64,000 nt of DNA. Origin: Aspidapion aeneum. Lineage: Eukaryota > Arthropoda > Insecta > Coleoptera > Brentidae. Below the pieces are notes generated by a model. The model was not told the DNA's origin. It saw only the letters and a program-made list of their open reading frames with translations, and did no database searches. Position numbers and translations under genes: made by a program. Each line of letters begins with the position of its first letter. Position 1 is the stretch's first letter. The stretch covers positions 137,737,624-137,801,623 of the forward strand of contig OY755038.1 of NCBI GenBank assembly GCA_963576565.1, written 5' to 3'. This document shows positions 1 to 62,274 of this stretch, piece by piece.

Positions 1-111
1 TACAAATTTAAGTATTTAAATTTTATAGTTAGAATTTATTTAGGTTTAGTGTAGTATTAGGTTGACGTATTTTATGGTTGTATTCTTAATCTAGGTTTTA
101 GTTGCGTTATC

Positions 112-7982: not shown

Positions 7983-7987
7983 ACAAA

Positions 7988-12504: not shown

Positions 12505-12539
12505 GTACTAAGTGCATTCATATAGAAATAGCAAGCGAT

Positions 12540-14111: not shown

Positions 14112-14116
14112 ATATT

Positions 14117-21436: not shown

Positions 21437-21660
21437 TACGGCCGAGGCGCCTCAAGTAATTGATTTTCGCCACAAGCGAAAATCAATAAACATACGGATG
21501 ATTTTCGCTACGCGAAAACATCCGTAAATTAGTTTATTAACAAATTTGCTTCGCAAACAAATTTGTGTTGAGAAAAATTTGCTTCGCAAATTAGTTTATA
21601 AACAAATTTGCCTCGCAAATTTGTGTTGAGAATAATTTGCTTCGCAAATTTTTTACATCC
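21437..21660. repeat. cluster of perfect hairpins, copy A
   Basis: A series of near-perfect inverted repeats follow one another: ATTGATTTTCG...CGAAAATCAAT, ACGGATGATTTTCG...CGAAAACATCCGT, and several copies of AAATTTGCTTCGCAAATTT separated by 'gtgttgagaa'. Each would fold into a stable DNA cruciform or RNA hairpin with a very small loop. Confidence 0.85.
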
Positions 21661-23624: not shown

Positions 23625-23639
23625 TATTAATTCTTAAAA
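23625..23639. repeat. left 15-bp flanking duplication of the satellite insertion
   Basis: The sequence tattaattcttaaaa stands here and again at 34331-34345. The uninterrupted site is present once in the macro-repeat copy at 40645-40659. The last few A residues could also belong to the inserted unit. Confidence 0.8.
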
Positions 23640-23784
23640 ATCAAACAAGTTTCATGGCTAATCGGGCAAAAAGGAGTTTTTTGTTTCCCTTTTATTTTTC
23701 CGTGGGTAGCTTGAAAGCTTAACCTCACGGGGGTCCAAGATCTAATGGACACCTAATAAGTGTTGACAGTTAACCGTTTCGTCC
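23640..23784 (-). repeat. partial 514-bp unit at the left end of the insertion
   Basis: The segment from 'atcaaacaagtttcatggc' to 'ccgtttcgtcc' matches the 514-bp unit, stopping inside stem II of the hammerhead. The rest of this unit resumes at 27217 beyond the inserted 3.4-kb element. The ribozyme strand is minus. Confidence 0.9.
23751..23784 (-). ncRNA. hammerhead ribozyme, 3' half, split by an insertion
   Basis: It contains stem I 3' strand, the GUC site, stem III with UUAA loop, GAAA and one strand of stem II. The other half (CUGAGGAG and the stem I 5' strand) lies at 27217-27244. The halves together give the same 62-base length as intact copies. Confidence 0.85.
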
Positions 23785-26700
23785 TGTGGTCTATTAAAAT
23801 GCGTTGGGTGACATTTGTGGCAGCTTAAAGACGTTGCCGCCATTTTGTGACACTATAATTAGAATAATAACAATTTGCCAATTTGTGACACAAAAAACCC
23901 ACTGAATAATTAAACAAATATCTGGAAGCAGAACTGTATTTTCCAGCTAGGTAAAACATTGATATGCCCGGTAACTTTTATACAGTGGAGAAGGGGGGGG
24001 GGGGGGTTCAGAAATAAGAAAATTTTACGTGCGCCACAGTGTTTTAATATCAATGTTTTACAAAGAAGATCTTAATTAAAATACAGTTCAACCCAAACGT
24101 TGTAGCCAAACAATGAAACTCTACTTACTTCCGATGCTTCCAGAGTATTTATGTAATTAAGAATAACCAAAAAAAAATAAACAGAATAAAATTCTAAAAG
24201 ATTGAATTAAGATGACAAAACTAGAAGCACTTTACAGGTAGATGGACTCCTTTAACAGGTCATAGTGTACCTACATCTGAGTCAGTAGTGTGAGACTCGG
24301 TTATATAAATGATTGTTAAAAAAAATACACTTCCAAAATCGTTCCATCATAGGGGAGATCTGGACCAAATATCTGTTGTCATCATTCTACGTTAGGTAGA
24401 ATGAGACAGACAGCAACCCAGTCCGAGATCTACCCCATGAGGTAAAAATGTGTAAAGAAACCGCTAAAAAAAAATAACCTCATCTCTCTTTTTATCTCTG
24501 CAAAGTTGGTCATTGGGTTGTACAAATAACACAAAGATTTAGTTCATCTTGTTGATTTTAAAGGTAAAGCTAAAAAAAATACTGGAGACATGAACTATGC
24601 AAAAAAATTAAACAAGTTCGGGCCAAAGTAGCAAGGCGCTTTAACTTTGACAGAGAAATTGTCTTAAATTAATGAAATGAAGGAAAACAAGTCAACTTAG
24701 TAAATACGCCGCAAAATTGTGGTTATGACGTCATACCGTTACCTTGCGTTTACAAGCAATGTTGAAATTATACTGTGAAAAATCATATATGAAAAGATAC
24801 GTCTAAATTATATTAAAAATTTATATTATGTCTAAATTATATTGAAGATTTATGTGAAAGATTATATCTGAAGCTTACTCCTACCTTGGTCCTTGATTAT
24901 TTTATAATTGTTGATGTTTTATTTTGCAAACCTGGAGTTCTGTTGTCCAGACATCTCACCACTGCACCGGGTCCTGCCCTGTTCTGTCCGCGCCTTCCCT
25001 AGTGCCCGCTTAGCACATCACGCTAGGGTAGCACATGGTTGTGAGAAGGTTGCTGATTCTTGCCCGAGCATAAAAACCCTGTGGAAAATGAAATGTTTCA
25101 GTTTCCTGGAATTCGTCTATTTTGCACGAAGTTCCCCTACACCGAGTAATTTAAATCGAGAACCCCATGTCGACTGAATAAAATAAAGTAGATTTAAACA
25201 GATTAACTAAAATAACCCTAACGTACCTTTCCCAGGGTTACAACTGGCTCGTCGATGGAACAGAACCTCGTTCCACCAGCGCAACTGTCCCGTCGATGGA
25301 ATGGACGGTACTGTAACCAAAGGAGAAAACAATATATAGTTTTTATCCAACACGTGGTTAAAAGAAAAATATAAAAACGCAAAAAAATTCCCCACGTCTT
25401 TTGTCAAAAAAAGTACATTTCACATGAAAAATAATTACAATTTGGGAGGCAAATATTATCTTGAAGAGTCCCCAAATTATAAAAAAAATTTAAAAAATAA
25501 AATCGAACTTACCACTGCTCTTTCCCGTACAAATGGCGTAGGCCGACTTAAATCCCCCTCAAAAGGGTGCAAGCGTCACTTTAGATTTCGCCTAAACACG
25601 ACGGACTCACTCTTCACACTCTCTGGGACAGAACCTGCAGTTTTTGCAGTGCCACTAACCAAAAACAATGGCGATCCCAGAGACCTGTTGCCGACCCAGC
25701 CAAAATTCGTTAGCAAAGAGACCAGGCACTTTGTCGAGAACACAAAAATAATGAAGCCACCGGAAACCGTTCGTAGACTTGGTGGGGACAGGAAAACGCA
25801 ATACCAACCTAATTTTCCCGGTTAAATTCAAATAAAGGATGCAAACCTATTTATAAAAAAAACTGTTTCGCCAAAAAATCTCTAACTTCGGTCGCAAGAC
25901 TGGAAGAAAAAACCCGCGGTTTTCAAACTAACCAATGAGGAAACACAACAATAGTCCCGTACCGGTATATAGGGGGCAGCACCGACCAAGGGGAACACGT
26001 AACACGCGCATCAGGTGTTGTCGGATCTATTTCCACGGTTGGAATTTTTATAACAAGGACGTCGAGACACCCTCCATACATAGACCGAACATTTGCCTAC
26101 CGGACCCCTGCCGACATAGCAAGTAGGAGGAAAATAACCAGACGGACTATAAGAAGCTCAGCACTGAAACCATCAACTGTAAAATCAATTACTGGAGATC
26201 AGAGCTTGCATCAAACCCAGGAATATTCGAACACTCAACCAATTCCCATATGAGTAAAGCTATACTAAGTGTAGAATTTAGTTGTATTTTAGTTACAGTT
26301 TTAGTCAAAAGTTTCCTTTGTTCTTTATATATGTTTTCTCTAAGATTCATATGGTTTGACGCCATTCTTGTAAAACATTTCTACATTAATAAAGTTGTTT
26401 CTGATCTTGAACCTAAAAATACCCATTGAACTACTGCTCAAACTCGGCACAAGAGTGTTCAGATGTTAAGTTTGCTCACCACTAGCCAGCCCTACAAACC
26501 CTTCAATCCGACTAACTGAGCTAGTTATTAACTTTATTTAACTATGATTATATATAAATTTATATAATATAAAAATACGATTTTGTTTATTTTTTTAGTC
26601 CTGGTTTTTATTCCTCGTTTATCTTCCATTTACGAAAGTGCATAACTCGTATTTATTTTATCTTCTCCTTATCAAATTAATAAAGATATCAAAGTGGGCG

Positions 26701-27212
26701 GAGCCTCGGTTGTTACTGGTCAAACCGTGGACCTAAATATGTTTTCGTGCTATCACAACTAGCTGAGGTTCGGATTGTCCCAATATCCTCGAAAATAAAC
26801 GTAAGGGAATGAAATGTTCATCTAAATGTTTCCTTCCTGTTACTGAAACCATTTGTGATGCGGCAACGCCGCCATTCCCCAGCAGAATCGCTGTTTATTG
26901 TCATGACCGTCAACGAAAACTATGAAATTTCAGATAAACAAAACAATCAAAAGTTTTTATGTGATTTTCCCGAAACCTGTGATCCTAAATTCCAATTACG
27001 ATGTCCAGATAATGCGATGTGCGTAGTGTCCACAGTAATTCGATGGAATGTCTCCTTTATAAGGTAACTTTTTGGACACTATATAACCTCCAAACCTAGC
27101 TCTATAAAATACCCTTAATTTGTGTACAGAAAGACGAGTCGAAGAGCCTTGATTATTTACCTGAATAAACAAATATGTAACGTTGCCTTAAACGTAAAAA
27201 TGACACGTTACA
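23785..27212 (+). mobile_element. 3.4-kb TG...CA element inserted in a hammerhead
   Basis: The element starts TGTGGTC and ends CGTTACA and is flanked by GTCC at 23781-23784 and 27213-27216. That is a 4-bp duplication of one stem II strand of the ribozyme. These are marks of an LTR-type integrase product, yet no matching terminal direct repeats and no reverse transcriptase, protease or integrase are visible. It could be a non-autonomous element, an unusually long solo LTR, or a class II element with weak inverted ends (TGT and ACA). Contents include a run of 12 or more G near 23995, poly(A) signals near 26390 and 26680, open frames of 63-133 codons without known domains, and one exon-like segment near its right end. 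Confidence 0.6.
26876..27062 (+). CDS. exon-like cysteine-rich ORF inside the 3.4-kb element
   Basis: A pyrimidine-rich tract ending cattccccag is followed by an open frame and then by AAG with GTAACT, a donor-like site at 27062/27063. The peptide includes FLCDFPETCDPKFQLRC followed by PDNAMCVV, whose spacing of Cys, Phe and Asp faintly recalls the first half of an LDL-receptor class A module; the Ca-binding DxSDE end is not there. I do not assign a function. It may be a captured host exon or chance. Confidence 0.3.
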
Positions 27213-27696
27213 GTCCTTATGGGACTCCTCAGAACACTGCTGGTCAAGTGACAAATCTTGCGAAGTTAATCAGACGGTTTTGTCTCTAATTAAATGTAAT
27301 TAGTGAGCGAACTATAGCAAGAGGCGCCATCTACCGAGATACGAGAGAAACAAAAAACCAAAAGCAGGGAAAAACACTGCTATACAATATCGATCAATGA
27401 AAAGATCGAATGCAAATAAAAGAAAACAACTATAGTCCGTGACCTACGACAGCTCTTTGTCTTTTCAGGCCGGATCAACGCATTTTGCATTTTTACCCGT
27501 CATCAAGACAGTGAGCGTCAATCAACGGAATTTTTAAGCCAAATAATACTAACAAACGTGAAATTTCATACCCGTGAATTTAAAAATCAAACAAGTTTCA
27601 TGGCTAATCGGGCAAAAAGGAGTTTTTTGTTTCCCTTATATTTTTCCGTGGGTAGCTTGAAAGTTTAACCTCACGGGGGTCCAAGATCTAATGGAC

Positions 27697-27758
27697 ACCT
27701 AATAAGTGTTGACAGTTAACCGTTTCGTCCTTATGGGACTCCTCAGAACACTGCTGGT
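27697..27758 (-). ncRNA. type I hammerhead ribozyme
   Basis: Read on the minus strand: stem I AGUGUU/AACACU, core CUGAGGA, stem II GUCC/GGAC with loop CAUAA, GAAA, stem III CGG/CUG with loop UUAA, and GUC cleavage site. Cleavage is predicted between 27711 and 27710. CUGANGA and GAAA are the invariant parts of the family, and N at the fifth position is allowed. Confidence 0.92.
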
Positions 27759-28210
27759 CAAGTGACAAATCTTGCGAAGTTAATCAGACGGTTTTGTCTC
27801 TAATTAAATGTAATTAGTGAGCGAACTATAGCAAGAGGCGCCATCTACCGAGATACGAGAGAAACAAAAAACCAAAAGTAGGGAAAAACACTGCTATACA
27901 ATATCGATCAATGAAAAGATCGAATGCAAATAAAAGAAAACAACTATAGTCCGTGACCTACGACAGCTCTTTGTCTTTTCAGGCCGGATCAACGCATTTT
28001 GCATTTTTACCCGTCATCAAGACAGTGAGCGTCAATCAACGGAATTTTTAAGCCAAATAATACTAACAAACTTGAAATTTCATACCCGTGAATTTAAAAA
28101 TCAAACAAGTTTCATGGCTAATCGGGCAAAAAGGAGTTTTTTGTTTCCCTTATATTTTTCCGTGGGTAGCTTGAAAGCTTAACCTCACGGGGGTCCAAGA
28201 TCTAATGGAC

Positions 28211-28272
28211 ACCTAATAAGTGTTGACAGTTAACCGTTTCGTCCTTATGGGACTCCTCAGAACACTGCTGGT
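28211..28272 (-). ncRNA. type I hammerhead ribozyme
   Basis: All helices and core bases match the copy at 27697, 514 bp away. Confidence 0.92.
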
Positions 28273-28724
28273 CAAGTGAAAAATCTTGCGAAGTTAATCA
28301 GACGGTTTTGTCTCTAATTAAATGTAATTAGTGAGCGAACTATAGCAAGAGGCGCCATCTACCGAGATACGAGAGAAACAAAAAACCAAAAGCAGGGAAA
28401 AACACTGCTATACAATATCGATTAATGAAAAGATCGAATGCAAATAAAAGAAAACAACTATAGTCCGTGACCTACGACAGCTCTTTGTCTTTTCAGGCCG
28501 GATCAACGCATTTTGCATTTTTACCCGTCATCAAGACAGTGAGCGTCAATCAACGGAATTTTTAAGCCAAATAATACTAACAAACGTGAAATTTCATACC
28601 CGTGAATTTAAAAATCAAACAAGTTTCATGGCTAATCGGGCAAAAAGAAGTTTTTTGTTTCCCTTATATTTTTCCGTGGGTAGCTTGAAAGCTTAACCTC
28701 ACGGGGGTCCAAGATCTAATGGAC

Positions 28725-28786
28725 ACCTAATAAGTGTTGACAGTTAACCGTTTCGTCCTTATGGGACTCCTCAGAACACTGCTGGT
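28725..28786 (-). ncRNA. type I hammerhead ribozyme
   Basis: All helices and core bases match; this is the last complete copy before the inversion point. Confidence 0.92.
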
Positions 28787-29500
28787 CAAGTGACAAATCT
28801 TGCGAAGTTAATCAGACGGTTTTGTCTCTAATTAAATGTAATTAGTGAGCGAACTATAGCAAGAGGCGCCATCTACCGAGATACGAGAGAAACAAAAAAC
28901 CAAAAGCAGGGAAAAACACTGCTATACAATATCGATCAATGAAAAGATCGAATGCAAATAAAAGAAAACAACTATAGTCCGTGACCTACGACAGCTCTTT
29001 GTCTTTTCAGGCCGGATCAACGCATTTTGCATTTTTACCCGTCATCAAGACAGTGAGTGTCAATCAACGGAATTTTTAAGCCAAATAATACTAACAAACG
29101 TGAAATTTCATACCCGTGAATTTAAAAATCAAACAAGTTTCATGGCTAATCGGGCAAAAAGGAGTTTTTTGTTTCCCTTATATTTTTCCGTGTTAGTATT
29201 ATTTGGCTTAAAAATTCCGTTGATTGACGCTCACTGTCTTGATGACGGGTAAAAATGCAAAATGCGTTGATCCGGCCTGAAAAGACAAAGAGCTGTCGTA
29301 GGTCACGGACTATAGTTGTTTTCTTTTATTTGCATTCGATCTTTTCATTGATCGATATTGTATAGAAGTGTTTTTCCCTGCTTTTGGTTTTTTGTTTCTC
29401 TCGTATCTCGGTAGATGACGCCTCTTGCTATAGTTCGCTCACTAATTACATTTAATTAGAGACAAAACCGTCTGATTAACTTCGCAAGATTTGTCACTTG

Positions 29501-29562
29501 ACCAGCAGTGTTCTGAGGAGTCCCATAAGGACGAAACGGTTAACTGTCAACACTTATTAGGT
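29501..29562 (+). ncRNA. type I hammerhead ribozyme (class A unit)
   Basis: Stem I AGUGUU (29507-29512) pairs with AACACU (29549-29554). The core CUGAGGA is at 29513-29519, stem II G29520-C29523 pairs with G29529-C29532, and GAAA is at 29533-29536. Stem III is 29537-29539 with 29544-29546, and the cleavage site GUC ends at 29548. A further ACC/GGU pairing extends stem I past an internal loop. Confidence 0.93.
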
Positions 29563-30014
29563 GTCCATTAGATCTTGGACCCCCGTGAGGTTAAGCTTTC
29601 AAGCTACCCACGGAAAAATATAAGGGAAACAAAAAACTCCTCTTTGCCCGATTAGCCATGAAACTTGTTTGATTTTTAAATTTACGGGTATGAAATTTCA
29701 CGTTTGTTAGTATTATTTGGCTTAAAAATTCCGTTGACTGACGCTCACTGTCTTGATGACGGGTAAAAATGCAAAATGCGTTGATCCGGCCTGAAAAGAC
29801 AAAGAGCTGTCGTAGGTCACGGACTATAGTTGTTTTCTTTTATTTGCATTCGATCTTTTCATTGATCGATATTGTATAGCAGTGTTTTTCCCTGCTTTTG
29901 GTTTTTTGTTTCTCTCGTATCTCGGTAGATGGCGCCTCTTGCTATAGTTCGCTCACTAATTACATTTAATTAGAGACAAAACCGTCTGATTATCTTCGCA
30001 AGATTTGTCACTTG

Positions 30015-30076
30015 ACCAGCAGTATTCTGAGGAGTCCCATAAGGACGAAACGGTTAACTGTCAACACTTATTAGGT
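30015..30076 (+). ncRNA. type I hammerhead ribozyme (class B unit)
   Basis: Core, stems II and III and the GUC site are intact. Stem I reads AGUAUU, giving one A-C mismatch opposite AACACU. Confidence 0.9.
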
Positions 30077-30528
30077 GTCCATTAGATCTTGGACCCCCGT
30101 GAGGTTAAGCTTTCAAGCTACCCACGGAAAAATATAAGGGAAACAAAAAACTCCTTTTTGCCCGATTAGCCATGAAACTTGTTTGATTTTTAAATTCACG
30201 GGTATGAAATTTCACGTTTGTTAGTATTATTTGGCTTAAAAATTCCGTTGACTGACGCTCACTGTCTTGATGACGGGTAAAAATGCAAAATGCGTTGATC
30301 CGGCCTGAAAAGACAAAGAGCTGTCGTAGGTCACGGACTATAGTTGTTTTCTTTTATTTGCATTCGATCTTTTCATTGATCGATATTGTATAGCAGTGTT
30401 TTTCCCTGCTTTTGGTTTTTTGTTTCTCTCGTATCTCGGTAGATGGCGCCTCTTGCTATAGTTCGCTCACTAATTACATTTAATTAGAGACAAAACCGTC
30501 TGATTATCTTCGCAAGATTTGTCACTTG

Positions 30529-30590
30529 ACCAGCAGTATTCTGAGGAGTCCCATAAGGACGAAACGGTTAACTGTCAACACTTATTAGGT
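30529..30590 (+). ncRNA. type I hammerhead ribozyme (class B unit)
   Basis: Same structure as the copy at 30015, with the A-C mismatch in stem I. Confidence 0.9.
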
Positions 30591-31042
30591 GTCCATTAGA
30601 TCTTGGACCCCCGTGAGGTTAAGCTTTCAAGCTACCCACGGAAAAATATAAGGGAAACAAAAAACTCCTTTTTGCCCGATTAGCCATGAAACTTGTTTGA
30701 TTTTTAAATTCACGGGTATGAAATTTCAAGTTTGTTAGTATTATTTGGCTTAAAAATTCCGTTGATTGACGCTCACTGTCTTGATGACGGGTAAAAATGC
30801 AAAATGCGTTGATCCGGCCTGAAAAGACAAAGAGCTGTCGTAGGTCACGGACTATAGTTGTTTTCTTTTATTTGCATTCGATCTTTTCATTGATCGATAT
30901 TGTATAGAAGTGTTTTTCCCTGCTTTTGGTTTTTTGTTTCTCTCGTATCTCGGTAGATGACGCCTCTTGCTATAGTTCGCTCACTAATTACATTTAATTA
31001 GAGACAAAACCGTCTGATTAACTTCGCAAGATTTGTCACTTG

Positions 31043-31104
31043 ACCAGCAGTGTTCTGAGGAGTCCCATAAGGACGAAACGGTTAACTGTCAACACTTATT
31101 AGGT
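31043..31104 (+). ncRNA. type I hammerhead ribozyme (class A unit)
   Basis: Stem I is fully paired (AGUGUU); all core bases are present. Confidence 0.92.
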
Positions 31105-31556
31105 GTCCATTAGATCTTGGACCCCCGTGAGGTTAAGCTTTCAAGCTACCCACGGAAAAATATAAGGGAAACAAAAAACTCCTCTTTGCCCGATTAGCCA
31201 TGAAACTTGTTTGATTTTTAAATTCACGGGTATGAAATTTCACGTTTGTTAGTATTATTTGGCTTAAAAATTCCGTTGACTGACGCTCACTGTCTTGATG
31301 ACGGGTAAAAATGCAAAATGCGTTGATCCGGCCTGAAAAGACAAAGAGCTGTCGTAGGTCACGGACTATAGTTGTTTTCTTTTATTTGCATTCGATCTTT
31401 TCATTGATCGATATTGTATAGCAGTGTTTTTCCCTGCTTTTGGTTTTTTGTTTCTCTCGTATCTCGGTAGATGGCGCCTCTTGCTATAGTTCGCTCACTA
31501 ATTACATTTAATTAGAGACAAAACCGTCTGATTATCTTCGCAAGATTTGTCACTTG

Positions 31557-31618
31557 ACGAGCAGTATTCTGAGGAGTCCCATAAGGACGAAACGGTTAAC
31601 TGTCAACACTTATTAGGT
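31557..31618 (+). ncRNA. type I hammerhead ribozyme (class B unit, variant)
   Basis: Core intact. Stem I has the A-C mismatch, and the outer ACC is changed to ACG (cttgacgagc), weakening the outer pairing with GGU. Confidence 0.88.
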
Positions 31619-32070
31619 GTCCATTAGATCTTGGACCCCCGTGAGGTTAAGCTTTCAAGCTACCCACGGAAAAATATAAGGGAAACAAAAAACTCCTTTT
31701 TGCCCGATTAGCCATGAAACTTGTTTGATTTTTAAATTCACGGGTATGAAATTTCAAGTTTGTTAGTATTATTTGGCTTAAAAATTCCGTTGATTGACGC
31801 TCACTGTCTTGATGACGGGTAAAAATGCAAAATGCGTTGATCCGGCCTGAAAAGACAAAGAGCTGTCGTAGGTCACGGACTATAGTTGTTTTCTTTTATT
31901 TGCATTCGATCTTTTCATTGATCGATATTGTATAGCAGTGTTTTTCCCTGCTTTTGGTTTTTTGTTTCTCTCGTATCTCGGTAGATGGCGCCTCTTGCTA
32001 TAGTTCGCTCACTAATTACATTTAATTAGAGACAAAACCGTCTGATTATCTTCGCAAGATTTGTCACTTG

Positions 32071-32132
32071 ACCAGCAGTATTCTGAGGAGTCCCATAAGG
32101 ACGAAACGGTTAACTGTCAACACTTATTAGGT
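32071..32132 (+). ncRNA. type I hammerhead ribozyme (class B unit)
   Basis: Core, stem II, stem III and GUC intact; A-C mismatch in stem I. Confidence 0.9.
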
Positions 32133-32584
32133 GTCCATTAGATCTTGGACCCCCGTGAGGTTAAGCTTTCAAGCTACCCACGGAAAAATATAAGGGAAAC
32201 AAAAAACTCCTTTTTGCCCGATTAGCCATGAAACTTGTTTGATTTTTAAATTCACGGGTATGAAATTTCACGTTTGTTAGTATTATTTGGCTTAAAAATT
32301 CCGTTGACTGACGCTCACTGTCTTGATGACGGGTAAAAATGCAAAATGCGTTGATCCGGCCTGAAAAGACAAAGAGCTGTCGTAGGTCACGGACTATAGT
32401 TGTTTTCTTTTATTTGCATTCGATCTTTTCATTGATCGATATTGTATAGCAGTGTTTTTCCCTGCTTTTGGTTTTTTGTTTCTCTCGTATCTCGGTAGAT
32501 GGCGCCTCTTGCTATAGTTCGCTCACTAATTACATTTAATTAGAGACAAAACCGTCTGATTATCTTCGCAAGATTTGTCACTTG

Positions 32585-32646
32585 ACCAGCAGTATTCTGA
32601 GGAGTCCCATAAGGACGAAACGGTTAACTGTCAACACTTATTAGGT
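32585..32646 (+). ncRNA. type I hammerhead ribozyme (class B unit)
   Basis: Core, stem II, stem III and GUC intact; A-C mismatch in stem I. Confidence 0.9.
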
Positions 32647-33098
32647 GTCCATTAGATCTTGGACCCCCGTGAGGTTAAGCTTTCAAGCTACCCACGGAAA
32701 AATATAAGGGAAACAAAAAACTCCTTTTTGCCCGATTAGCCATGAAACTTGTTTGATTTTTAAATTCACGGGTATGAAATTTCAAGTTTGTTAGTATTAT
32801 TTGGCTTAAAAATTCCGTTGATTGACGCTCACTGTCTTGATGACGGGTAAAAATGCAAAATGCGTTGATCCGGCCTGAAAAGACAAAGAGCTGTCGTAGG
32901 TCACGGACTATAGTTGTTTTCTTTTATTTGCATTCGATCTTTTCATTGATCGATATTGTATAGAAGTGTTTTTCCCTGCTTTTGGTTTTTTGTTTCTCTC
33001 GTATCTCGGTAGATGACGCCTCTTGCTATAGTTCGCTCACTAATTACATTTAATTAGAGACAAAACCGTCTGATTAACTTCGCAAGATTTGTCACTTG

Positions 33099-33160
33099 AC
33101 CAGCAGTGTTCTGAGGAGTCCCATAAGGACGAAACGGTTAACTGTCAACACTTATTAGGT
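33099..33160 (+). ncRNA. type I hammerhead ribozyme (class A unit)
   Basis: Stem I fully paired; core intact. Confidence 0.92.
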
Positions 33161-33612
33161 GTCCATTAGATCTTGGACCCCCGTGAGGTTAAGCTTTCAA
33201 GCTACCCACGGAAAAATATAAGGGAAACAAAAAACTCCTCTTTGCCCGATTAGCCATGAAACTTGTTTGATTTTTAAATTCACGGGTATGAAATTTCACG
33301 TTTGTTAGTATTATTTGGCTTAAAAATTCCGTTGACTGACGCTCACTGTCTTGATGACGGGTAAAAATGCAAAATGCGTTGATCCGGCCTGAAAAGACAA
33401 AGAGCTGTCGTAGGTCACGGACTATAGTTGTTTTCTTTTATTTGCATTCGATCTTTTCATTGATCGATATTGTATAGCAGTGTTTTTCCCTGCTTTTGGT
33501 TTTTTGTTTCTCTCGTATCTCGGTAGATGGCGCCTCTTGCTATAGTTCGCTCACTAATTACATTTAATTAGAGACAAAACCGTCTGATTATCTTCGCAAG
33601 ATTTGTCACTTG

Positions 33613-33674
33613 ACCAGCAGTATTCTGAGGAGTCCCATAAGGACGAAACGGTTAACTGTCAACACTTATTAGGT
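33613..33674 (+). ncRNA. type I hammerhead ribozyme (class B unit)
   Basis: Core intact; A-C mismatch in stem I. Confidence 0.9.
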
Positions 33675-34126
33675 GTCCATTAGATCTTGGACCCCCGTGA
33701 GGTTAAGCTTTCAAGCTACCCACGGAAAAATATAAGGGAAACAAAAAACTCCTTTTTGCCCGATTAGCCATGAAACTTGTTTGATTTTTAAATTCACGGG
33801 TATGAAATTTCAAGTTTGTTAGTATTATTTGGCTTAAAAATTCCGTTGATTGACGCTCACTGTCTTGATGACGGGTAAAAATGCAAAATGCGTTGATCCG
33901 GCCTGAAAAGACAAAGAGCTGTCGTAGGTCACGGACTATAGTTGTTTTCTTTTATTTGCATTCAATCTTTTCATTGATCGATATTGTATAGCAGTGTTTT
34001 TCCCTGCTTTTGGTTTTTTGTTTCTCTCGTATCTCGGTAGATGGCGCCTCTTGCTATAGTTCGCTCACTTATTACATTTAATTAGAGACAAAACCGTCTG
34101 ATTAACTTCGCAAGATTTGTCACTTG

Positions 34127-34188
34127 ACCAGCAGTGTTCTGAGGAGTCCCATAAGGACGAAACGGTTAACTGTCAACACTTATTAGGT
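34127..34188 (+). ncRNA. type I hammerhead ribozyme (last, mixed unit)
   Basis: Stem I fully paired (AGUGUU) and core intact. The unit combines class A and class B markers elsewhere and has private changes (cattcaatc, cacttatta, ggtgccc). Confidence 0.92.
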
Positions 34189-34794
34189 GCCCATTAGATC
34201 TTGGACCCCCGTGAGGTTAAGCTTTCAAGCTACCCACGGAAAAATATAAGGGAAACAAAAAACTCCTTTTTGCCCGATTAGCCATGAAACTTGTTTGATT
34301 TTTAAATTCACGGGTATGAAATTTCACGTTTATTAATTCTTAAAAGAATTGAGAAATTTATACCTATTCCAAAGATTATTTGGCCACACTGTAACCTATC
34401 TATATTTTCTTGGAAAAAAGCAACGTTGTTCAACTTGATATTTTAAAAATTCATCGTTTTTCCCTACTCCCAACAAAAAATGCTATAACTTGGCCAAAAG
34501 TTATTTGAACTTTTTGTCTGCTTTGGACCTTCCGCACCATCTCTTAAAGAATAGGTTCATCATTTAAATTACACCCTGTATTTTAGGTATCATATTTTAA
34601 TTATATTTTATAAAAAGCCAAGGCCCAAAAGTAGGTATCCATTTCCTGTTTACTGGGTATCCAATCTGAAGGCTTGCGTATCCAAATTGATACACAATAT
34701 AGTCTAAAAAGATGCCTTGCAGACTGATAGGAACTATGACAAAACTATAGGAAAAAACAAAAAACCCGAAACGGGGGTCCAAGATCTAATGACC

Positions 34795-34857
34795 ACCTAT
34801 TAAGTGTTAACAGTTAACTGTTTCGTGCTTTAAGGACTCTTCAGAACACTGCATGGT
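34795..34857 (-). ncRNA. hammerhead-like motif of the 450-bp subfamily
   Basis: On the minus strand: stem I AGUGUU/AACACU, CUGAAGA core, GAAA, stem III CAG/CUG with UUAA loop. Stem II reads GUCC against GCAC, so it has a C-C mismatch, and the cleavage triplet is GUU instead of GUC. Activity is doubtful but not excluded, since NUH triplets can be cut. Confidence 0.7.
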
Positions 34858-36239
34858 CAATGTAACACCTTTGTAAAGTTAGAGAGACGGTATATAAATC
34901 TCATCTTACGATATTGGTAAGAGAAATGAAAACTAATGCTTGCAATACTGTATGCTTTATACACTATGCCCATGGAAAAATAATTTAATAAGTTCTCCAA
35001 TATACATTTTAAAATGAAAAGTTTTTACTAGTTTGGAAAAGTTTTCTTAAATATTTCGCGAAATATATTGCGAAATATATTTAAAACGTAAAGGATTTTG
35101 ATGTCCGTATATTTGGGTCACTGTCAAAAATTACCAAAACATTTTTTTATAGAATTTTTTTTGAAAGCAAAGGGCTGTAGTATATAATAAGGTAAAAAGT
35201 AGTTTTTTTTTAAATAGACAAAATATGTAATAAAAATTGATTATTTTGGTTACTGTTGAAAATTTATATATATAAGTACGCCCCTGTAGGCTTACCTGTG
35301 AAATAAACCCCACATTATATTAAAGCTTTTATAAGGAAATTATATATTCTACAATAAAAACAGTTTAATTTTTTAGTAAATTTTATAAAACCTAAAATAA
35401 ACGTGTCTTTTCGAAATAATCCCAATTTACGGACGCCACTGAAGAGCTACTTGCTTTTCCTAATCTCATCGACCAATATATCGTTCTTTTCTTAAAAAGA
35501 TAGCGGCTTAGGAACTGCAAAAAAGTGAAAGGGCAAAAATTTCGATTTAGTATTGTGGCTGCAAAAATCTACATAGTTTTTGAAAAATCGTCAAATCTCA
35601 TAATTTAAAAAATTCAATTGGAGAGTTATAGTTTTTGCAAAGTCACCTGAAATGCTCCTAATACGGGGTTCTATCGATTTCATGAAATTTTTCTTCAATC
35701 TGCCCTTCAAAAGTTATGCATATTCATATAAAACTTCCTGGTATAATTTCAACCCTACCGACAGAGAAAAGGCGCGACTCTTTGAGGTCCGAGCACAAAG
35801 TTTGTGTTTTCTGACCGACCCAGCACAGGTGGATAAAACATACCTGATTGGCAGATTTTTTTGAGATCCGCTTTTAATTGCTTTCAGGTTTTGGTTTCTG
35901 GACCCCTTTAGTCGGCAGTATGCAGAGTTAGAAAATAAATCAGTGTCGTTTCTGTAGGTGTAGGAATAGAAAGTTTTATTATCTATTTTTATTTCTTTAG
36001 TTTACGCCATAATTAAATGAAATAATTTTCATGAGTATATCTACCGCCGCCCATGTCACTTTCTTTAAAGGATATGCCGATGGTCGGCTTTAAACTTTGT
36101 TCAACTGACTTTGCAAAAACTATACCTAACTTTCCTTTGGGCCTCGCTCATGCTAAAAACCAATTTCTTTAAGAAAAAAATCAAATTCACTTTTATCCAC
36201 TGCATTTGAAGGTAATATCCCATTATTATTGTTTTGCGA

Positions 36240-36470
36240 AATATATTTAAAACGTTACAGTTTAGGATCCGTGACTAAAAAGAATCCGTGACCAAAAAGA
36301 ACAAAAATATTCGTGGATAAGCAGGTATAAAAAGGTTTTGTTTCTCTTGTATTTTTTCCGTGGGCAGTTCGAAAGCTGTACACTCACGGGGTCCAAGACC
36401 TAATGGACACCTATTAACTCTTTCGCCAGAGAGACAGATATAAATCTCATCTTACGATATTGGTAAGAGA
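36240..36470 (-). repeat. hammerhead-type module with the catalytic core deleted
   Basis: It holds the 'ccgtgggcag...cacgg' hairpin and 'ggggtccaagacctaatggacacc' arm, then 'attaactctttcgccagagagacag' where the CUGANGA half should be. It is matched almost exactly at 50840-51035. Confidence 0.75.
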
Positions 36471-38596
36471 AATTAAAAATAATGCATGCGCTACCTTATT
36501 CTTTAAACACATGTAGCGACATCTACCAAATACAAAAGAAACTTTGCCCACGAAAAAATACAAGAGAAACAAAACCTTTTTGTATATGTTTAACCACGAA
36601 AATATTTTGTTTCTTTTTAAATATAGTTATCCAAAAATTACCCTGGAAGCTTGAAATTGGACACTGATTTAAAAATAAACCATGTACCATTTAACAAATT
36701 TTTACCTTATATTAAATTAAAGTACGTTATAAATTAGTCAAAACTATGTTTAATTTATTTATTAACTTATTATTTGCCTTTGTCAGCGCCTTACAACTGC
36801 TAACTGTTATTATCACTGTACTTTAATAATAATTTATCGAATAATTTAATTGAATTTTAAGATAATATAATAAAAGTGCCTTTTTATTGCTAAAATATGT
36901 AGCTCTCACTCACTTTTATCCGTTGCATTTGTCATGTAAAATACTACCTAATATTAGTTTTTTCCAAACATTTTGCATAATATATAGTCCAAAGAATTAC
37001 CCTAGGAACTTAAAATTAGACACTGTCTTAAAAATGACATCTGGTATTTTGCAAATTTTACTCTGCTCTTTAAAATGAAAGTATTACTTTACTATAGTTT
37101 AGTGGCATTTGCGAATTTCTTAATATCTACAAGATAATTTTTATTTCTGGTTACTTTGTTAAGCGCGCTCTATGAAAATGAAAAAACTGTTGACTGATTA
37201 TTATGTAAAAAGGTCTGAGTAAGCGAATGGTATAACTTACGTCAAAATCTAAGGCATAGTTTTGAAGATATTGTAATTGTTTTAAATAAAAATACTTGAA
37301 ATTTATGGAGCTTTTTAAACATTTTGCGTTAAATTTCAAAAACCATAGGTCCCAGATAATTTTTTAAAATGTAACGAATTGTAGCTCCTGCTCCTCTCAT
37401 TCCACAAAAACAGTGCACCAAGAGTTTCATTTTTAACCAATTTGTCTATAATATTGTATTTCGTTAACTCTTTACCAATATTTCTCGCGGTATATAATTT
37501 AAAAATAAACCTACGGACATAAAATTTGCCATAACTTAAAAATGACATGTCACTTTATGGATTTTGTTCTGCTCTTTAACTTGAAATTAATCTTATTATT
37601 ATTGCAATAATATTTTTAAAAATATTTGCAAATTCCTTTAATTTTATAAGATTTTTATTAATTTTGGACCATTTTGATAAATGTTAAGTGCCCTACACCA
37701 GCGCCCTCCATTAAGGTTAAAACTATAAATAAAGTTTTATGTAGAAAGGTTCCGCGAAGTGAGTAGTGTAGTTTTTGTCCAATTCGGACCCACTGTTTTA
37801 AAGATATCGCAATTTTTGTAAAAATGCGTGTTATTTCTGTTGAGATTTTTGCGTGTTTTTTAATATTTATTTCTCAAACTCAAAAACGGTATAACTTAGA
37901 AAAATCGAACTTTTTAAAAAATATATTTTGGTATTTTCTTAGAAAGATAGCAGTTCGAGAACTGTCAAAAAGTGTAAGGGCAAAAAAATTTCTCGATTCA
38001 GTATTTTTGAATACAAAAACCTTGCTTAGTTTTGAAAAATCCTCAAAACTCAAAAACCAAACACTAATTTTAAAAACCAACTATACGGTTACCGAACACT
38101 CCCTTAGGTCCGCAAATGTTTAAAATTTGGTTAAAATGGGTTAAACGGTTTTGGAGTAATGACCAGATATATTTTAAAAAACGGCAAATAAACAGTGAAA
38201 TTCTGACCAATTTTATTGTATAGTGAAAATGCGTCACTGCAGGGATTCAGAAGAACCCCAAAATGGGGCACTTGACTTTTTCCGATATGGCTGAAAAACA
38301 ATAGGCTTCCTGACCACACATAAGAGTATATTTGTGCAAAATCTCAAGTATCTAGAATCATCCCCTGGACACTTATGGTGTGCCAACCGAGGTACATAAA
38401 AAAAGTCAGTTTTTGACGGTTTTTCCCCTATTCCTCTACTTGAAATTTTCCGATTTGACCCAAAATTGACATTTTTGGTTTCCCGTAAGTTCTTAATCAG
38501 TGCGCCTTTCATCCTTCTACGTCAAAGCGTTCCCGAGTAAGCGTCAAAATTCGAGCGCGATACACTAGGGGTGCTAGGGACGGAATAATAAAAAAA

Positions 38597-38672
38597 ATAA
38601 CTTCGCAAACAAATTTGTGTTGAGAAAACTTTGCTTCGCAAATTAGTTTATTAACAAATTTGCTTCGAAAAC
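38597..38672. repeat. hairpin cluster, truncated, copy B
   Basis: Only the AAATTTGCTTCGCAAATT-type hairpins remain. The ATTGATTTTCG and ACGGATGATTTTCG pairs of the other copies are missing, replaced by a direct jump from the 'gacggaataataa' phrase. Confidence 0.75.
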
Positions 38673-41437
38673 TTTTTACATTCAACACTTTTAAACCTGT
38701 TGCAGCATTGATTTTCGCTAAGCCTCTCGCCAGCGGCGAGATTTTGTGTTTAATCATTTATAAAAAATATGTTTAACAGTGTTTCCATTGATATCGTATA
38801 ATAACATTTGGGGGATTGGAAACAAAATCATTGTCTACAAGTTTCAAACCAAGAATTTGAAAAATTATTATTAGTTCATAAATTTGTGTCAATAAAATTT
38901 GCTTCGCAAAGTTACTTTTGTCAATAAGTTGCTTTGCAAATTTAATTTACCAGTGTTAATTTAAGTTAATATCGAACTCATACACAGTTATTAAAAAGTG
39001 CATTTTTCATCCCTTAAATGTGTAACTCTCGCTTTGCTCATGCGACAGACTCACGGTCTCAAAAAATTACATATTTTCCTTGATACTTGATCAAGTATCA
39101 TTTCCTCATAAATTCATTAATCTTTTATTCTATAAAATCCGTTTAGTGGTTCTTTAAATAATAATTGTTATTCCAACTGTTGCTTTAACTTCTGTCTACA
39201 ATAATTTCCTTATAAATTCACTGAACCGATTTCAATAATAAAAAAAGAAATATTGCTCTTTGAACAAAACTGTTGAAATTTTCCTACATTTTTAAATCCA
39301 AGATGTTGGAAAAAAGTCAAGTTTGTCTTTCTTGGAAGGATCACTTCTTTGAATGTTGCGAGGATTTATTTTTTTATGATTAGTACCTCGTTGTGAGTGG
39401 TGGATCTTATAAATATATTCAAAAAAGGGTCGAAAAATTTCTCGTAACATAAGAAACAACTATCCTTTATGGAGGGTCATATTCGATTTAGTAAGCCATA
39501 TTATATTTAGAGTTGGCGGAGAATTTCGCCATGATGCTTTTTATTTTATTGTCGGTTTAGTAATAATGAATTTATGAAGAAATGAATGCACATAGAAATG
39601 GCAAGGCAATCGCATAATCTGTAAAACTTTTCCGAAAAAAATCAAAAAATTTTCAAAAAATATAAGAATAAACAGCCTTTTTAAAAAGTAAAGTTTTTAT
39701 TTCCGCCATTTTGGATTTTACAATGACGGCAAATTTTAATAGTGATCTTTTAAAAGCAATCAATCTGTTCCACTTTATATTTTATTAAAATCGGTTCGGC
39801 AAAAATTTATTTATGAGGAAGACAGGATTTAGAAGACAATCGTTACAACCTAAAAAACAATATAGTTGAAGAGAAAATCAATTTTTAGAGACTGAAATCG
39901 TTTGTAACGATTCAGATCTCGTTGTGCTTAACAAAGATAGAGCTTTTCTACAAACAAAAAAAATATCCAAAATTTCCACACATTTCCAACTTAAGAATAA
40001 ACAAGCCTCTTTTAAGGGTCAGGATGGTGGACAAAAATATACTTTTACACAAATGTCCGATCAATCAATCCCTGCCAACTACTCTTTGCTTTGGTAAAAT
40101 TGGTGTTATAGTTGGAAAGTTATAACGAAAAACATTTTGTCGGGTTTTTTTGCCCACCAGGTATATTTGAAAAGCGCTGACTTTTATAAATTGTTTATTT
40201 TCAGACCAAAATGATACTTTCAAATATCTTAAAATTCTTACCATAACATACAAACATTTAACATAATATCAGGGTGTAATAATAGTAAACTTTAGTAGGT
40301 GGTAGAAAAGATCAAAAGAAGGATTGTTTCTTATTATATTTTGCATCATACTTCTTTATTTGTTAGATAAAGGGTGCCAAACTTAACAGCAATTTTTTTT
40401 GTTGTTATAACTTCCTTAAAAATCATTACGGAAAATCGACAATTTCTGAAATTATGCATGACAATAAGGGTAATAATTAAATGGTAAAATTATTTGAAAA
40501 TACATAGAAATACTCAACATTATTACCAAAAATCGTTAAAATATGGTGCTAATATTATTATTTTATATTTGTTTTAAGGGGCCTTTAGACATGTACAAAA
40601 ATCTATTTCAATTTCTTTCGTGTAAATTTAATAGCTCATAAAAATATTAATTCTTAAAAGAATTGAGAAATTTATACCTATTCCAAAGATTATTTGGCCG
40701 CAGTGTATCCTTAACCTATCTATATTTTCTAGGAGAAAAGCAACGTTGTTCAATTTGATATTTTAAAAATTCATCGTTTTTCTCTACTTTCTCAACTTAA
40801 AAAATGCTATAACTTGGCCAAAAGTTATTTGAACTTTTTGTCTGCTTTGGACCTTCCGCACCATCTCTTAAAGATTGGTTCATCATTTAAATTACACCCT
40901 GTATTTTAATTACACCCTGTATTTTAGGTACCAAAAGTAGGTATCCATTTTCTGTTTACTGGGTATCCAATCTGAAGGCCTGCGTATCCAAATGGATACA
41001 CAATATAGTCTAAAAAGATGCCTTGCAGACTGATAGGAACTATGACAAAACTATAGGAAAAAACAAAAAACCCGAAATTATAATTTACTCCCCTTCCGTA
41101 TACATGTAAAGTTATGTAAAAGTAATATTACTTCCAGAAACACTAGAGAGCTGAGATTTGACAGACTGACAGTAACTAAGAGAAATATATATAATAATTG
41201 AGATAAAAGTATAGCCAAGTTCTCCAATATACATTTTAAAATTAAAGGTTTTTACTAGAAAAGTTTTCTTAAATGTTTTGCGAAATACATTTAAAACGTA
41301 AAGTTTGGTACCCGTGAATAAAAAAAAAACAAAAATTTTTTGTGGATAATCGGGTGTAGAAAGGGTTTGTTCCTCTTGTGGTTTTGCGTGGGCAGCTCGA
41401 AAGCTGGGCACCCACGGGGGTCCAAGATCTAATGGCC

Positions 41438-41500
41438 ACCTATTAAGTGTTGACAGTTAACTGTTTCGTGCTTAAAGGACTCTTCAGAACACTGCATGGT
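41438..41500 (-). ncRNA. hammerhead-like ribozyme of the 450-bp subfamily
   Basis: Minus strand: stem I AGUGUU/AACACU, CUGAAGA, GAAA, stem III CAG/CUG (UUAA loop) and GUC site are all present. Stem II (GUCC/GCAC) has one C-C mismatch. Cleavage would fall just 3' of the GUC. Confidence 0.75.
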
Positions 41501-41587
41501 CAATGTAACACCTTCGTAAAGTTAGAGAGACGGTATATAAATCTCACCTTACGATATTGGTAAGAGAAATGGAAAATAATGCCTGCA

Positions 41588-49532: not shown

Positions 49533-49577
49533 TATACAGTCCATTGCAGTTATCGTTTTTCTAACTGCGGGCAAACA

Positions 49578-51626: not shown

Positions 51627-51634
51627 CAGATAGC

Positions 51635-59525: not shown

Positions 59526-59774
59526 TAAGTTATATATATATATATATATATATATATACTATATACATTTTAAAATTAAAGGTTTTTACTAGTTTGGAAA
59601 AGTTTTCTTAAATGTTTTGCGAAATATATTTAAAACGTAAAGTTTGGTACCCGTGAATAAAGAAAACAAAATTTTTTCGTGGATAATCGGGTGTAGAAAG
59701 GTTTTGTTCCTCTTGTGTTTTTCCGTGGGCAGCTCGAATGCTGTACACCCACGGGGGTTCAAGATCTAATGGCC

Positions 59775-59837
59775 ACCCATTAAGTGTTGACAGTTAACTG
59801 TTTCGTGCTTAAGGGACTCTTCAGAACACTGCATGGT
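59775..59837 (-). ncRNA. hammerhead-like ribozyme of the 450-bp subfamily
   Basis: CUGAAGA core, GAAA, stem III CAG/CUG, GUC site and fully paired stem I (AGUGUU/AACACU) are present on the minus strand. Stem II (GUCC/GCAC) has a mismatch. Confidence 0.75.
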
Positions 59838-60238
59838 CAATGTAACACAATTGTAAAGTTAGAGAGACGGTATATAAACCTCATCTTACGATATTGGTAA
59901 GAGAAATGAAAAATAATGCCTGCAATACTGTATGTTTTATACACAAGTTGCGACATCTACCGAATACAAAAGAAATTATGCCCATTGAAACATACTTTAA
60001 TAAGTTTTCTAATATACATTTTAAAATGAAAAGTTTTTACTAGTTTGGAAAAGTTTTCTAAAATACTTTGCGAAATATATTGCGAAATATATTTAAAACG
60101 TAAAGTTTAGTACCCGTGAATAAAGAAACCAAAAATTTTTCGTGGATAATCGGGTGTAGAAAGGTTTTGTTTTCTCTTGTGTTTTTCCGTGGGCAGCTCG
60201 AATGCTGTACACCCACGGGGGTTCAAGATCTAATGGCC

Positions 60239-60305
60239 ACCCATTAAGTGAGTGTTGACAGTTAACTGTTTCGTGCTTAAGGAACCCTTCAGAACCGTGC
60301 ATGGT
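60239..60305 (-). ncRNA. degenerate hammerhead motif
   Basis: The core reads CUGAAGG instead of CUGANGA, stem I is disturbed (GGUU against AACACUCA with a 4-base insertion), and stem II is altered. GAAA and stem III remain. It is probably inactive. Confidence 0.6.
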
Positions 60306-62274
60306 CAATGTAACACCTTTGTAAAGTTGAAGAGACGGTATATAAATATCATCTTACGATATTGATAAGAGAAATGAAAAATAATGCCTGCAATACGGTA
60401 TGCTTTAAGCACAAGTGGCGACATCTACCGAATGCAAAAGAAACTATGCTCATGGAATAATACAAGAGAAACAAAACCTTTTTATATACGTTTAGCCACG
60501 AAAAATTTTTGTTTTTTTTTAAATATTTATCCAAAAATTAGCCTTGGAATTGGACACTGATTCAAAAATAAAATGTTAATTATTTAACTAAGTGTAATTC
60601 ATTTAATGACTACTCATTATTTGCCTTTGCCAACCCCTTACAACTGATGCTATTATCACTGGACTTAAATAATAATGTAATTTAATTAAAGTGCCTTTTT
60701 ATCGCTAAAGTATGTAGCTCTCGCTCCCCTCATGCTAAAAACTTGTTGCTTTAAAAAAATATTAATGTCACTTTTATCCTTTGAATTTGGCGTGTAAAAT
60801 ACTAATATTAGATTTTGCCAAACATTTTGCCTAATTTATAATCCAAAGAATTAACCTAGGAACTTAAAAATAGACACTGACTTAAAAATGACATCTGGTA
60901 TTTTGCAAATTTTACTCTGCTCTTTAAAATGAAAGTATTACTATACTATAGTTTAATGTGGCATTTGCGAATTTCTTAACATCTATGAACCGACAATTTT
61001 TAATTTTGGTTACTTTGTTAAGCGCGCTCTATGAAAATGATAAAACTGTTGACTGATAACTATGTAAAAAGGTTCGAGTAAGCGAATAGTGTAACTTCCG
61101 TCAAAATCTGACGTATGGTTTTGAAGATATCGTAATTGTTTAAATAAAAATACATGAAATTTATTGAGCTTTTTAAATATTTTGGGATAAATATCAAAAA
61201 CTATCGGTCCAAGATAATTTATTTTATAATCAAACGAATTGTAGCTCCGGCTCCTCTCATGCTACAGACTCAATGCATCAAAAAAAGTTTTAATTTCAAC
61301 CAATTTGTGTATAATATTCTATTTCGTTGACGTTTTACAAATATTTTTCGCGGTATTTGATCAAAAAATAAACCTAGAAACTAAAAATTTGTCATAACTT
61401 AAAAATAACATATGTCATTTTATAGATTTTTGTCTCTTCTTTAACATGAAATTAATCCTATTATTATTGCAATTATATTTCAAAAAATATTTGCAAATTC
61501 CTTTAATTATATAAGATTTTTATTAATTTTGGACCGTTTTGATAAATGTTAAGTGCCCTACACCAGCGCCCTCTACATTAAGGTTAACAACTTAGAAAAG
61601 TTGAAATTTTTTTATAAAATATTTTGGTATTTTCTTAAAAAGGTAGCAGTTCGAGAACTGTCAAAAAGTGTAAGGGCAAAAAAATTTCTCGATTCAGTAT
61701 TTTTGACTGCAAAAACCTTGCATAGTTTTTGAGAAATCCTCAAAACTCAAAAATCAAAAACTAATTTTAAAAACCAACTATACGGTTACTGAACACTCCC
61801 TTAGGTCCGCAAACGTTTAAAATTTGGTTACAATGCATTAAACAGTTTTGGAGTAATGACGAATTTTATTGTATAGTGAATATGCGTCACTGCAGGGATT
61901 CGGAAGAGCCCCAAAATGGGGCACTTGACTTTTTCCGATCTGGCTGAAAAACAATAGGCTTCCTGACCACACATAAGAGTATACTTGTGCAAAATCTCAA
62001 GTTTCTAGAATAATCGTCTGGACACTTATGGTGTGCCAACGGAGGTACATCAAAAAAAGTCACTTTTTGACGGTTTTGCCCCTATTTCCCCTACTTGAAA
62101 TTTTCCGATTTGACCCAAAATTGACATTTTTGGTCTCCCGTAAGTTCTTAATCAGTGCGCCAAATTTCATTCTTCTACGTCGAAGCGTTCCCGAGTAAGC
62201 GTCAAAATTCGAGCGCGATACACTAGGGGTGCTAGGGACGGAATAAAAAAAAAATAATAAAAATAATGTTACGG

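Follow-up and report, generated by a model that had tools for sequence, protein, structure and literature searches.

By which enzyme is a short repeat that carries a hammerhead ribozyme and no coding frame of its own moved through an animal genome? This question is raised by a stretch of 64,000 nucleotides from the beetle Aspidapion aeneum (the window; assembly GCA_963576565.1, contig OY755038.1, positions 137,737,624 to 137,801,623), which contains an inverted array of a 514-bp repeat with one hammerhead per unit. What moves the animal retrozymes is an open question, for which Penelope-like elements (PLEs) had so far only been proposed (PMC7229834; papers are cited here by such numbers and for their accessible parts). 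An earlier reading of the window, made from the letters alone (the sequence-only reading), had called the array a satellite. This name is misleading, as the repeat forms dispersed insertions with preferred 3′ ends, target-site duplications and an empty site. The anatomy of these insertions, on which the sequence-only reading was silent, is our main finding, and we consider it very probable that we are dealing with a hammerhead retrozyme, about 514 bp long and non-autonomous, which uses the PLE machinery.

Dispersed copies with two preferred 3′ ends

The exact 25-base core of the hammerhead occurs 9,465 times in the genome (1.286 Gb in 149 contigs), whereas the reversed core used as control does not occur at all (0); the core is therefore not a chance pattern. 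One exact 27-base core pattern was not found in viral or GTDB contigs, a search from which records close to the genome of the window were possibly excluded. Taken in listed order, the first 100 cores fall into 71 clusters, of which we examined the first 40 loci and in addition part of a further locus, L060; all sampled loci were chosen by the exact core. Among these 100 cores, neighbours within 1 kb are arranged −+ in 13 cases, +− in none, ++ in 10 and −− in 6, and elsewhere in the genome cores on the same strand are spaced by 513–532 bp. The insertions in the 40 loci measure 112–1,542 bp, with 37 of them under two unit lengths, and the array of the window is longer than any of them. In these 40 loci the repeat is a dispersed mobile element and not an ordinary satellite.

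With unit position 1 set at the base that follows the GUC cut, the outer ends of the insertions represent the 3′ side of the RNA. These ends cluster at about 125 and about 157 nt past the cleavage site, and we distinguish class A (unit 110–140) and class B (unit 150–185), two intervals that were set after a first look at the ends. Nearly all A ends lie at 124–132 and nearly all B ends at 156–170. The two intervals take up 67 of the 514 positions and contain 58 of the 65 3′ ends of the 40 loci. Two arms are present in 25 loci, always head-to-head (−/+ in 25/25); 19 of these combine one A with one B end, and the combinations AA or BB do not occur (0/25). Among the 15 single-armed loci the 3′ end is of class B in eight, of class A in six and of neither class in one, a 112-bp fragment. 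The insertion in the window follows the A plus B pairing (ends 131–137 and 157), and L060, a multi-unit inverted array, has ends at 161 (B) and 127 (A) and a 17-bp duplication. Taking the 40 loci, the window and L060 together (n = 42), 41 insertions have at least one end at A or B and 21 use both sites, one per arm. For this analysis pieces were joined within 95 bp; the list of class A ends comprises 31 rows, including the poorly anchored L035 and L038 (7 and 9 of 15), and groups not joined to the piece holding the core were left out (two at L013 and one each at L009, L024, L046 and L047).

Duplications of at least 11 bp (median 12 bp) flank 17 of the 20 A/B insertions, the window included. 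As a control, 246 mismatched flank pairs were compared, none of which reaches 11 bp and eight of which reach 9 bp. The target is rich in A+T (88% in the 18 A/B insertions with a duplication of at least 9 bp). Retrozymes are expected to be flanked by duplications of more than 4 bp, and both the window (8–15 bp) and the A/B insertions (mostly at least 11 bp) exceed this value. Three features by which mobilization by a PLE would be recognized were found, namely two start sites about 30–40 nt apart, inverted arms with a tail on one of them, and a short AT-rich duplication.

Anatomy of the insertion in the window

The array of the window is a single insertion event (23634..34331) of two inverted arms, which was later broken by a 3.4-kb insert; the span of 27217..34330 given by the sequence-only reading is too short, position 27217 being the edge of this later insert. 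The left arm, on the minus strand, consists of an outer piece (23634..23785), whose outer end lies at unit ~131–137, the class A start site, and of an inner piece (27213..29192) with its inner end at unit 61. According to a BLAST comparison of the unit with the window the outer piece is 99% identical to the unit and shares its register with the array at 27213. The right arm (29191..34331, plus strand) spans 10 × 514 bp within a base or two, from its inner end at unit ~157–159 to its outer end at unit 156/157, the class B start site. The arms thus meet at unit 61 (left) and unit ~157 (right), and the head-to-head inversion junction (29191..29192) shows a 2-nt overlap, TG. The later insert (23786..27212, 3,427 bp) interrupts the leftmost hammerhead within stem II; it has a 5-bp flanking duplication, with GTCCT on both sides, and long terminal repeats (LTRs) were not found in it.

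The flanks of the insertion match a paralogous segment without the array (40420–41077); the match of the left flank reaches 40659, and that of the right flank begins at 40645. The target (T)ATTAATTC(TTAAAA) is present in two copies around the insertion (23625..23639 and 34331..34345, both plus strand) and once in the empty site (40645..40659, plus strand), which lies in a neighbouring copy of a large repeat. The edge of the duplication is ambiguous (8–15 bp), because TTAAAA is common to target and unit. A fold-back artefact of the assembly at 29191 is unlikely, as the two arms meet at different positions of the unit and contain different variants, and as L060 and 25 sampled loci have the same form. 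A match to MIR5048 at the inversion junction (94 bits, cut-off 160) is regarded as an artefact that the inversion of the arms produces.

A PLE of the same genome with the same kind of ends

The GIY-YIG domain (PF01541) has at least 91 matches in the genome. One PLE copy (L049) contains a 627-aa frame with Pfam matches to RVT_1 (E 4e-7) and GIY-YIG (E 7e-6). A second copy (L050), which agrees with L049 at 97.8% over 2.4 kb, has a frame of 551 aa that matches GIY-YIG. Both frames are probably 5′-truncated, since they are shorter than the usual 800–900 aa (PMC3846280). A comparison of the PLE frame with solved structures gave no match.

In L049 a 680-bp stretch is repeated inverted at 98%, giving a head-to-head form with a minimal hammerhead (CUGAAGA...GAAACGUC) near each end. 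Read by eye, the element ends 59 nt (right) and about 94–98 nt (left) after the hammerhead cut, and its flanks share (CT)ATACAATTAAT, a duplication of 11–13 bp. L050 ends at about +94–98. Six of seven further PLE copies were readable: three end at +59..62 (64, 66 and 64 when read by a script) and three at +92..98 (97, 98 and 98 by the script, whose reference string is 98 long and gives no reading beyond). Altogether nine 3′ ends were resolved by eye from eight of the nine copies, four at +59..62 and five at +92..98. The two end sites of the PLE lie about 35 nt from each other, compared with about 32 nt in the retrozyme, and the single two-armed copy that was read uses one of them per arm. In the predicted folds a short stem surrounds site A in both RNAs (CCCG 99–102/CGGG 137–140 in the retrozyme, GUCCU 33–37/AGGAC 73–77 in the PLE); the common arrangement, with site A between the stem halves and site B about 17 nt past the stem, is suggestive.

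Hammerheads and units of the array

A pattern search identified 13 complete hammerhead cores in the window, ten on the plus and three on the minus strand. When both strands of the 64 kb were searched with a relaxed pattern (CTGANGA, 3 bp or more in stem II, GAAA), nothing beyond the same 13 was detected. As the sequence-only reading had noted, CUGANGA (N = G, thus CUGAGGA), stem II GUCC/GGAC (GUCC-CAUAA-GGAC), GAAA and GUC are common to all 13. The core elements of a type I hammerhead (CUGANGA...GAAA...NUH, three helices, stem I open) are present in 13/13. The stem III hairpin ACGG-UUAA-CUGU, with one G·U, is identical in all of them, so that the loop had been read correctly; the stem, however, is 4 bp and not 3 bp long if the A-U pair at the core is included. 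Likewise, a canonical 6-bp stem I in every unit had been claimed, and this holds for seven of the 13 copies. In these stem I (AGUGUU/AACACU) is intact, i.e., in 27705..27752, 28219..28266 and 28733..28780 on the minus strand and in 29507..29554, 31049..31096, 33105..33152 and 34133..34180 on the plus strand. The remaining six, all in the right arm and on the plus strand (30021..30068, 30535..30582, 31563..31610, 32077..32124, 32591..32638 and 33619..33666), read AGTATT, which introduces an A·C mismatch. A 14th hammerhead on the minus strand is split by the later insert into a cut-site half (23759..23785) and the other half (27213–27238).

The sequence-only reading had named the lack of a covariance-model hit above threshold as grounds for giving up the assignment, and this is literally what was found: at gathering scores Rfam has no hammerhead match in the window. 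With a relaxed E-value seven copies match Hammerhead_1 (RF00163; 24.7 bits against a cut-off of 34, E 0.016) and six match Hammerhead_3 (24.8 bits against 48.5, E 0.081). We do not take the low scores as a refutation, since all core positions are present. The Hammerhead_3 matches depend on a remote upstream strand (AACCGUC, about 65 nt upstream). A type III reading of these six copies would be due to chance or recent, and we set it aside because the partner ACGGUU is ACAGUU in four older hammerhead-bearing copies, where the pairing is lost. The hammerheads are genuine as sequence features. The G in stem I is probably the older state and the A·C mismatch derived, as AGTGTT is found in three of the window's four diverged relatives with a hammerhead, while the fourth reads differently. 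It is plausible that transcripts of the seven intact copies would cleave themselves to 514-nt monomers.

All 11 units that could be measured from cut site to cut site are exactly 514 bp long, which confirms the spacing given earlier for both arms. They have a GC content of 38.5% and 15 variable columns, and any two of them differ at no more than eight positions. Two pairs of right-arm units are identical, and the units of this arm share haplotypes. Genome-wide there are 37 exact matches to the 48-mer with the broken stem I, six of them in the array of the window; this variant therefore multiplied here, probably at the DNA level. As the mismatch variant occupies six of its units, the long right arm probably grew partly by DNA-level exchange. 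A monomer circle as the sole template of the present right arm is rejected because of the shared haplotypes; an exchange of mutated units after insertion is possible.

In the array there is no stop-to-stop frame of 120 aa and no open frame with reverse transcriptase and GIY-YIG domains as in an autonomous PLE. In agreement with a non-LTR retrozyme, LTRs and a coding frame are missing and the insertions end inside the unit; primer binding site and polypurine tract were not searched. The circular monomer is predicted to be strongly folded (z −3.8 against 60 dinucleotide shuffles), with energies of −133.9 kcal/mol for the sense and −117.3 kcal/mol for the antisense strand. Formation of the hammerhead would cost 4.3 kcal/mol above the minimum in the AGUGUU unit and 9.5 kcal/mol in the AGUAUU unit. 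When the unit is compared with the older copies, the 48-nt hammerhead is more alike than its flanks in three of four (p 0.005–0.012, uncorrected; p 0.16 for the fourth), whereby the four copies sit in repeats of one another and are hence not independent; the fragment at 23.6 kb (p 0.86), whose hammerhead is cut by the insert, was not counted.

Older relatives and other repeats in the window

Four older, diverged relatives lie on the minus strand: 41294..41534 (77%), with a hammerhead-like core and a C·C mismatch in stem II, 59633..59871 (78%), 60096..60339 (76%) and a partial one at 34771..34891 (83%). In the first three the homology ends at unit 157. Further relatives (19779–19915, 36296–36417 and 50914–51002, minus strand) are devoid of the ~75-bp hammerhead stretch; they keep the flanks and have an internal inverted repeat.

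A large repeat of about 5–6 kb is present in about four copies of one orientation (19067–23639; 34943–41077; 49576–51371 with 56349–58807; 59130–63778), which are roughly 80–97% alike and invaded by other elements; no stop-to-stop frame of 120 aa is listed inside it. Two back-to-back reverse transcriptase frames (RVT_1) at 51623–56044 apparently split one of these copies, and the frame at 51623–54622 has endonuclease/exonuclease and reverse transcriptase domains. A perfect tandem duplication of 468 bp is found at 3277–4214. Direct repeats of about 819 bp, 99% alike (6666–7481 and 13299–14117), surround the frames at 7982–13280 and are probably the LTRs of a young element, presumably of the BEL type. 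Among the frames of the window we discern BEL-, mariner- and Jockey-like elements, a mixture that would fit an arthropod; in Pfam, four of seven frames have matches (DUF1759 twice, RVT_1 twice).

Discussion

The end anatomy of the retrozyme, that of the resident PLE and in vitro work on a PLE enzyme agree. A purified PLE enzyme of Anolis initiates at two neighbouring internal sites, cleaves AT-rich DNA and extends both of its strands (PMC11167929). The insertions of the retrozyme, which has 9,465 exact cores in the genome, bear a PLE-type end signature and so point to a likely enzyme.

What is the template? Among the 51 arms long enough to include the core, the window counted in, the copied length is 470–600 nt in 18, with a peak near one unit. 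The inner ends fall on the start sites in ten of the 51 arms (115–165, p 0.027) and into 84–102 in eight arms primed from either site (p 5e-4), both intervals having been picked after looking, and none (0/51) lies within 5 nt of the hammerhead cut. Arm lengths and inner ends are those expected of a circular template whose copying is blocked after one lap, and we regard this evidence as moderate, because the loci had been selected by the core and several units are spanned by some arms. The retrozyme RNA is probably circular; for the animal retrozymes abundant circular RNAs are described (PMC7229834). As a separate observation, copying of the retrozyme RNA halts three times at exactly unit 317.

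We suggest the following cycle. Transcripts of tandem copies would cleave themselves at GUC, and the monomers would be ligated to circles. The PLE reverse transcriptase/GIY-YIG endonuclease would bind the RNA downstream of the ribozyme and cut AT-rich DNA with a stagger of ~12 bp. Both 3′ ends of the DNA would then prime on the sense RNA, one at about nt 125 and the other at about nt 157 after the cleavage site. Copying would go 5′-ward through the ribozyme and often end after about one lap, and finally the two cDNAs would join head-to-head. Cleavage, circularization, the identity of the enzyme and the priming of both strands on one RNA molecule are the parts of this cycle that we infer. Going further, it is conceivable, if somewhat short of an even chance, that the animal hammerhead 'satellites' and retrozymes are generally Penelope-type parasites, and that one circle is copied simultaneously from both cut ends, one strand priming at each of two fixed sites about 32 nt apart, the two polymerases limiting each other to about one lap. 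If true, such copying would give the head-to-head form and account for the tail on one arm.

Several observations weigh against reading the element as a retrozyme moved by PLE machinery. Six of the 25 two-armed insertions have one unclassed end (five A plus other, one B plus other). L047 contains a tail-to-tail pair, an older plus-strand piece (73%) lying 110 bp before a 99% minus-strand piece, which we take as two separate insertions. Three of the 20 A/B insertions have duplications shorter than 11 bp (L036, 6 bp; L038, none; L040, 9 bp), and among the other insertions four of 21 have a duplication of at least 11 bp and 17 do not. Within the array the hammerhead, with one of the 15 variable columns, is not clearly less variable than the rest. 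The unit shares no BLAST similarity with the two PLE copies, so that this PLE family is no more than a candidate partner. Exact-core sampling would overlook copies of cleaved linear RNA, which would begin at unit 1, and the continuity of the template across the cut site is partly built in, because the loci were picked by the exact core; a single observation, the lap length, speaks for an RNA circle.

Could the array nevertheless be an ordinary satellite, spread by unequal crossing-over and reinsertion of extrachromosomal DNA circles? The long tandem array with its whole unit numbers, the shared haplotypes and identical unit pairs of the right arm and the local concentration of broken-stem 48-mers (6/37), which implies some array growth at the DNA level, fit such an explanation. 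The dispersed insertions, however, are mostly under two units long and have duplications of about 12 bp and a paralogous empty site, and neither the two preferred 3′ ends nor the head-to-head arrangement in 25/25 two-armed loci agrees with it. We regard this explanation as highly improbable; it is largely refuted by the preferred ends and the duplications and remains as a local contributor. A long interspersed nuclear element (LINE) with an apurinic/apyrimidinic endonuclease might also move the RNA, in which case the inversions would be of the L1 twin-priming type. For L1 twin priming a fixed second priming point is not known; here the second site lies about 32 nt from the first, and each of the two serves once per insertion in 19 of the 25 two-armed loci. 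It is true that 15-bp duplications and 5′ inversions are on record for L1 (PMC4245944, PMC2912911) and that the window has a frame with endonuclease/exonuclease and reverse transcriptase domains at 51623–54622. On the other hand, the same two-site ends are found in the PLE of the same genome, a comparison that covers PLE copies, not LINE copies. In the literature searched no paper mentions both the hammerhead and twin priming. We hold a LINE to be a very unlikely mover.

More weight has to be given to the idea that the hammerhead is a fossil, i.e., that mobility depends on the PLE-type 3′ region of the element and self-cleavage has no role. Stem I is broken in six of the 13 window copies, stem II has a C·C mismatch in older relatives, the Rfam scores are under the cut-off, and ribozyme mutants of a PLE had no effect on insertion in vitro (PMC11167929). 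Yet the exact 25-base core is kept in 9,465 copies (the broken-stem 48-mer, a longer string whose count gives no ratio of broken to intact copies, occurs 37 times), and the hammerhead is more alike than its flanks in three of four older copies (uncorrected and not independent). In addition, strong folding is predicted for the circle (z −3.8), in which the hammerhead lies 4.3 kcal/mol above the minimum, and the arm lengths peak near one lap. A fossil hammerhead appears unlikely to us, and we prefer a retrozyme that uses both its ribozyme and the PLE machinery.

How does this retrozyme compare with known systems? The observation of the sequence-only reading is partly confirmed and its interpretation partly supported; in particular, its placing of a type I hammerhead in a ~500-bp repeat, kin in kind to pDo500 and to the animal retrozymes, is borne out. 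The hammerhead repeats of Schistosoma (W elements, PMC8490949; Sj-alpha) likewise have a hammerhead in repetitive DNA and signs of mobility. For W25.2 a possible target-site duplication is reported, its membership in the four hammerhead families not being stated in the accessible text, which describes no two-site end rule (PMC8490949). The satellite pDo500 of Dolichopoda cave crickets shares a repeat length of about 500 bp, one hammerhead per unit and, in most of its sequences, a G·U in stem III (PMC2837043). The likeness is one of description, and unlike our element pDo500 is presented in the accessible text as a satellite, without insertion ends or duplications. For pDo500 a double hammerhead has been proposed (PMC2837043); here a near-palindrome, ACGGUUAACUGU, was noted by eye.

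Close relatives in kind are also the metazoan non-LTR retrozymes (Cervera & de la Pena 2020, PMC7229834), which likewise have one type I hammerhead in each unit, copies in tandem, low GC, duplications of more than 4 bp, a predicted structured circle and thousands of copies. They differ in that repeats of 150–450 bp are stated, compared with 514 bp here, and in that the accessible part of that paper describes no two-armed head-to-head insertions with two fixed 3′ ends. The same authors named PLEs a strong candidate for completing retrozyme mobilization (PMC7229834). The Penelope/Poseidon-type PLEs (PMC11167929, PMC3846280) have two internal start sites about 30–40 nt apart downstream of the hammerhead, inverted head-to-head arms with a tail on one of them, and short AT-rich duplications. 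In contrast to them the retrozyme has no 120-aa frame and carries a full type I hammerhead with a 4-bp stem III instead of the minimal PLE form. In rotifer PLEs the pseudo-LTRs are inverted, optionally with a 31-bp tail on one of them, and duplications of 8–10 bp are found in several cases and none in others (PMC3846280). The form with the tail on one arm has been ascribed to self-priming on antisense RNA (PMC3846280); priming of both strands on sense RNA is a possible answer to this head-to-head puzzle. With thousands of copies in one genome both questions, the mover of the retrozymes and the origin of the head-to-head form, become countable, and the repeats of coral, mussel, axolotl and cricket can be compared in the same way.

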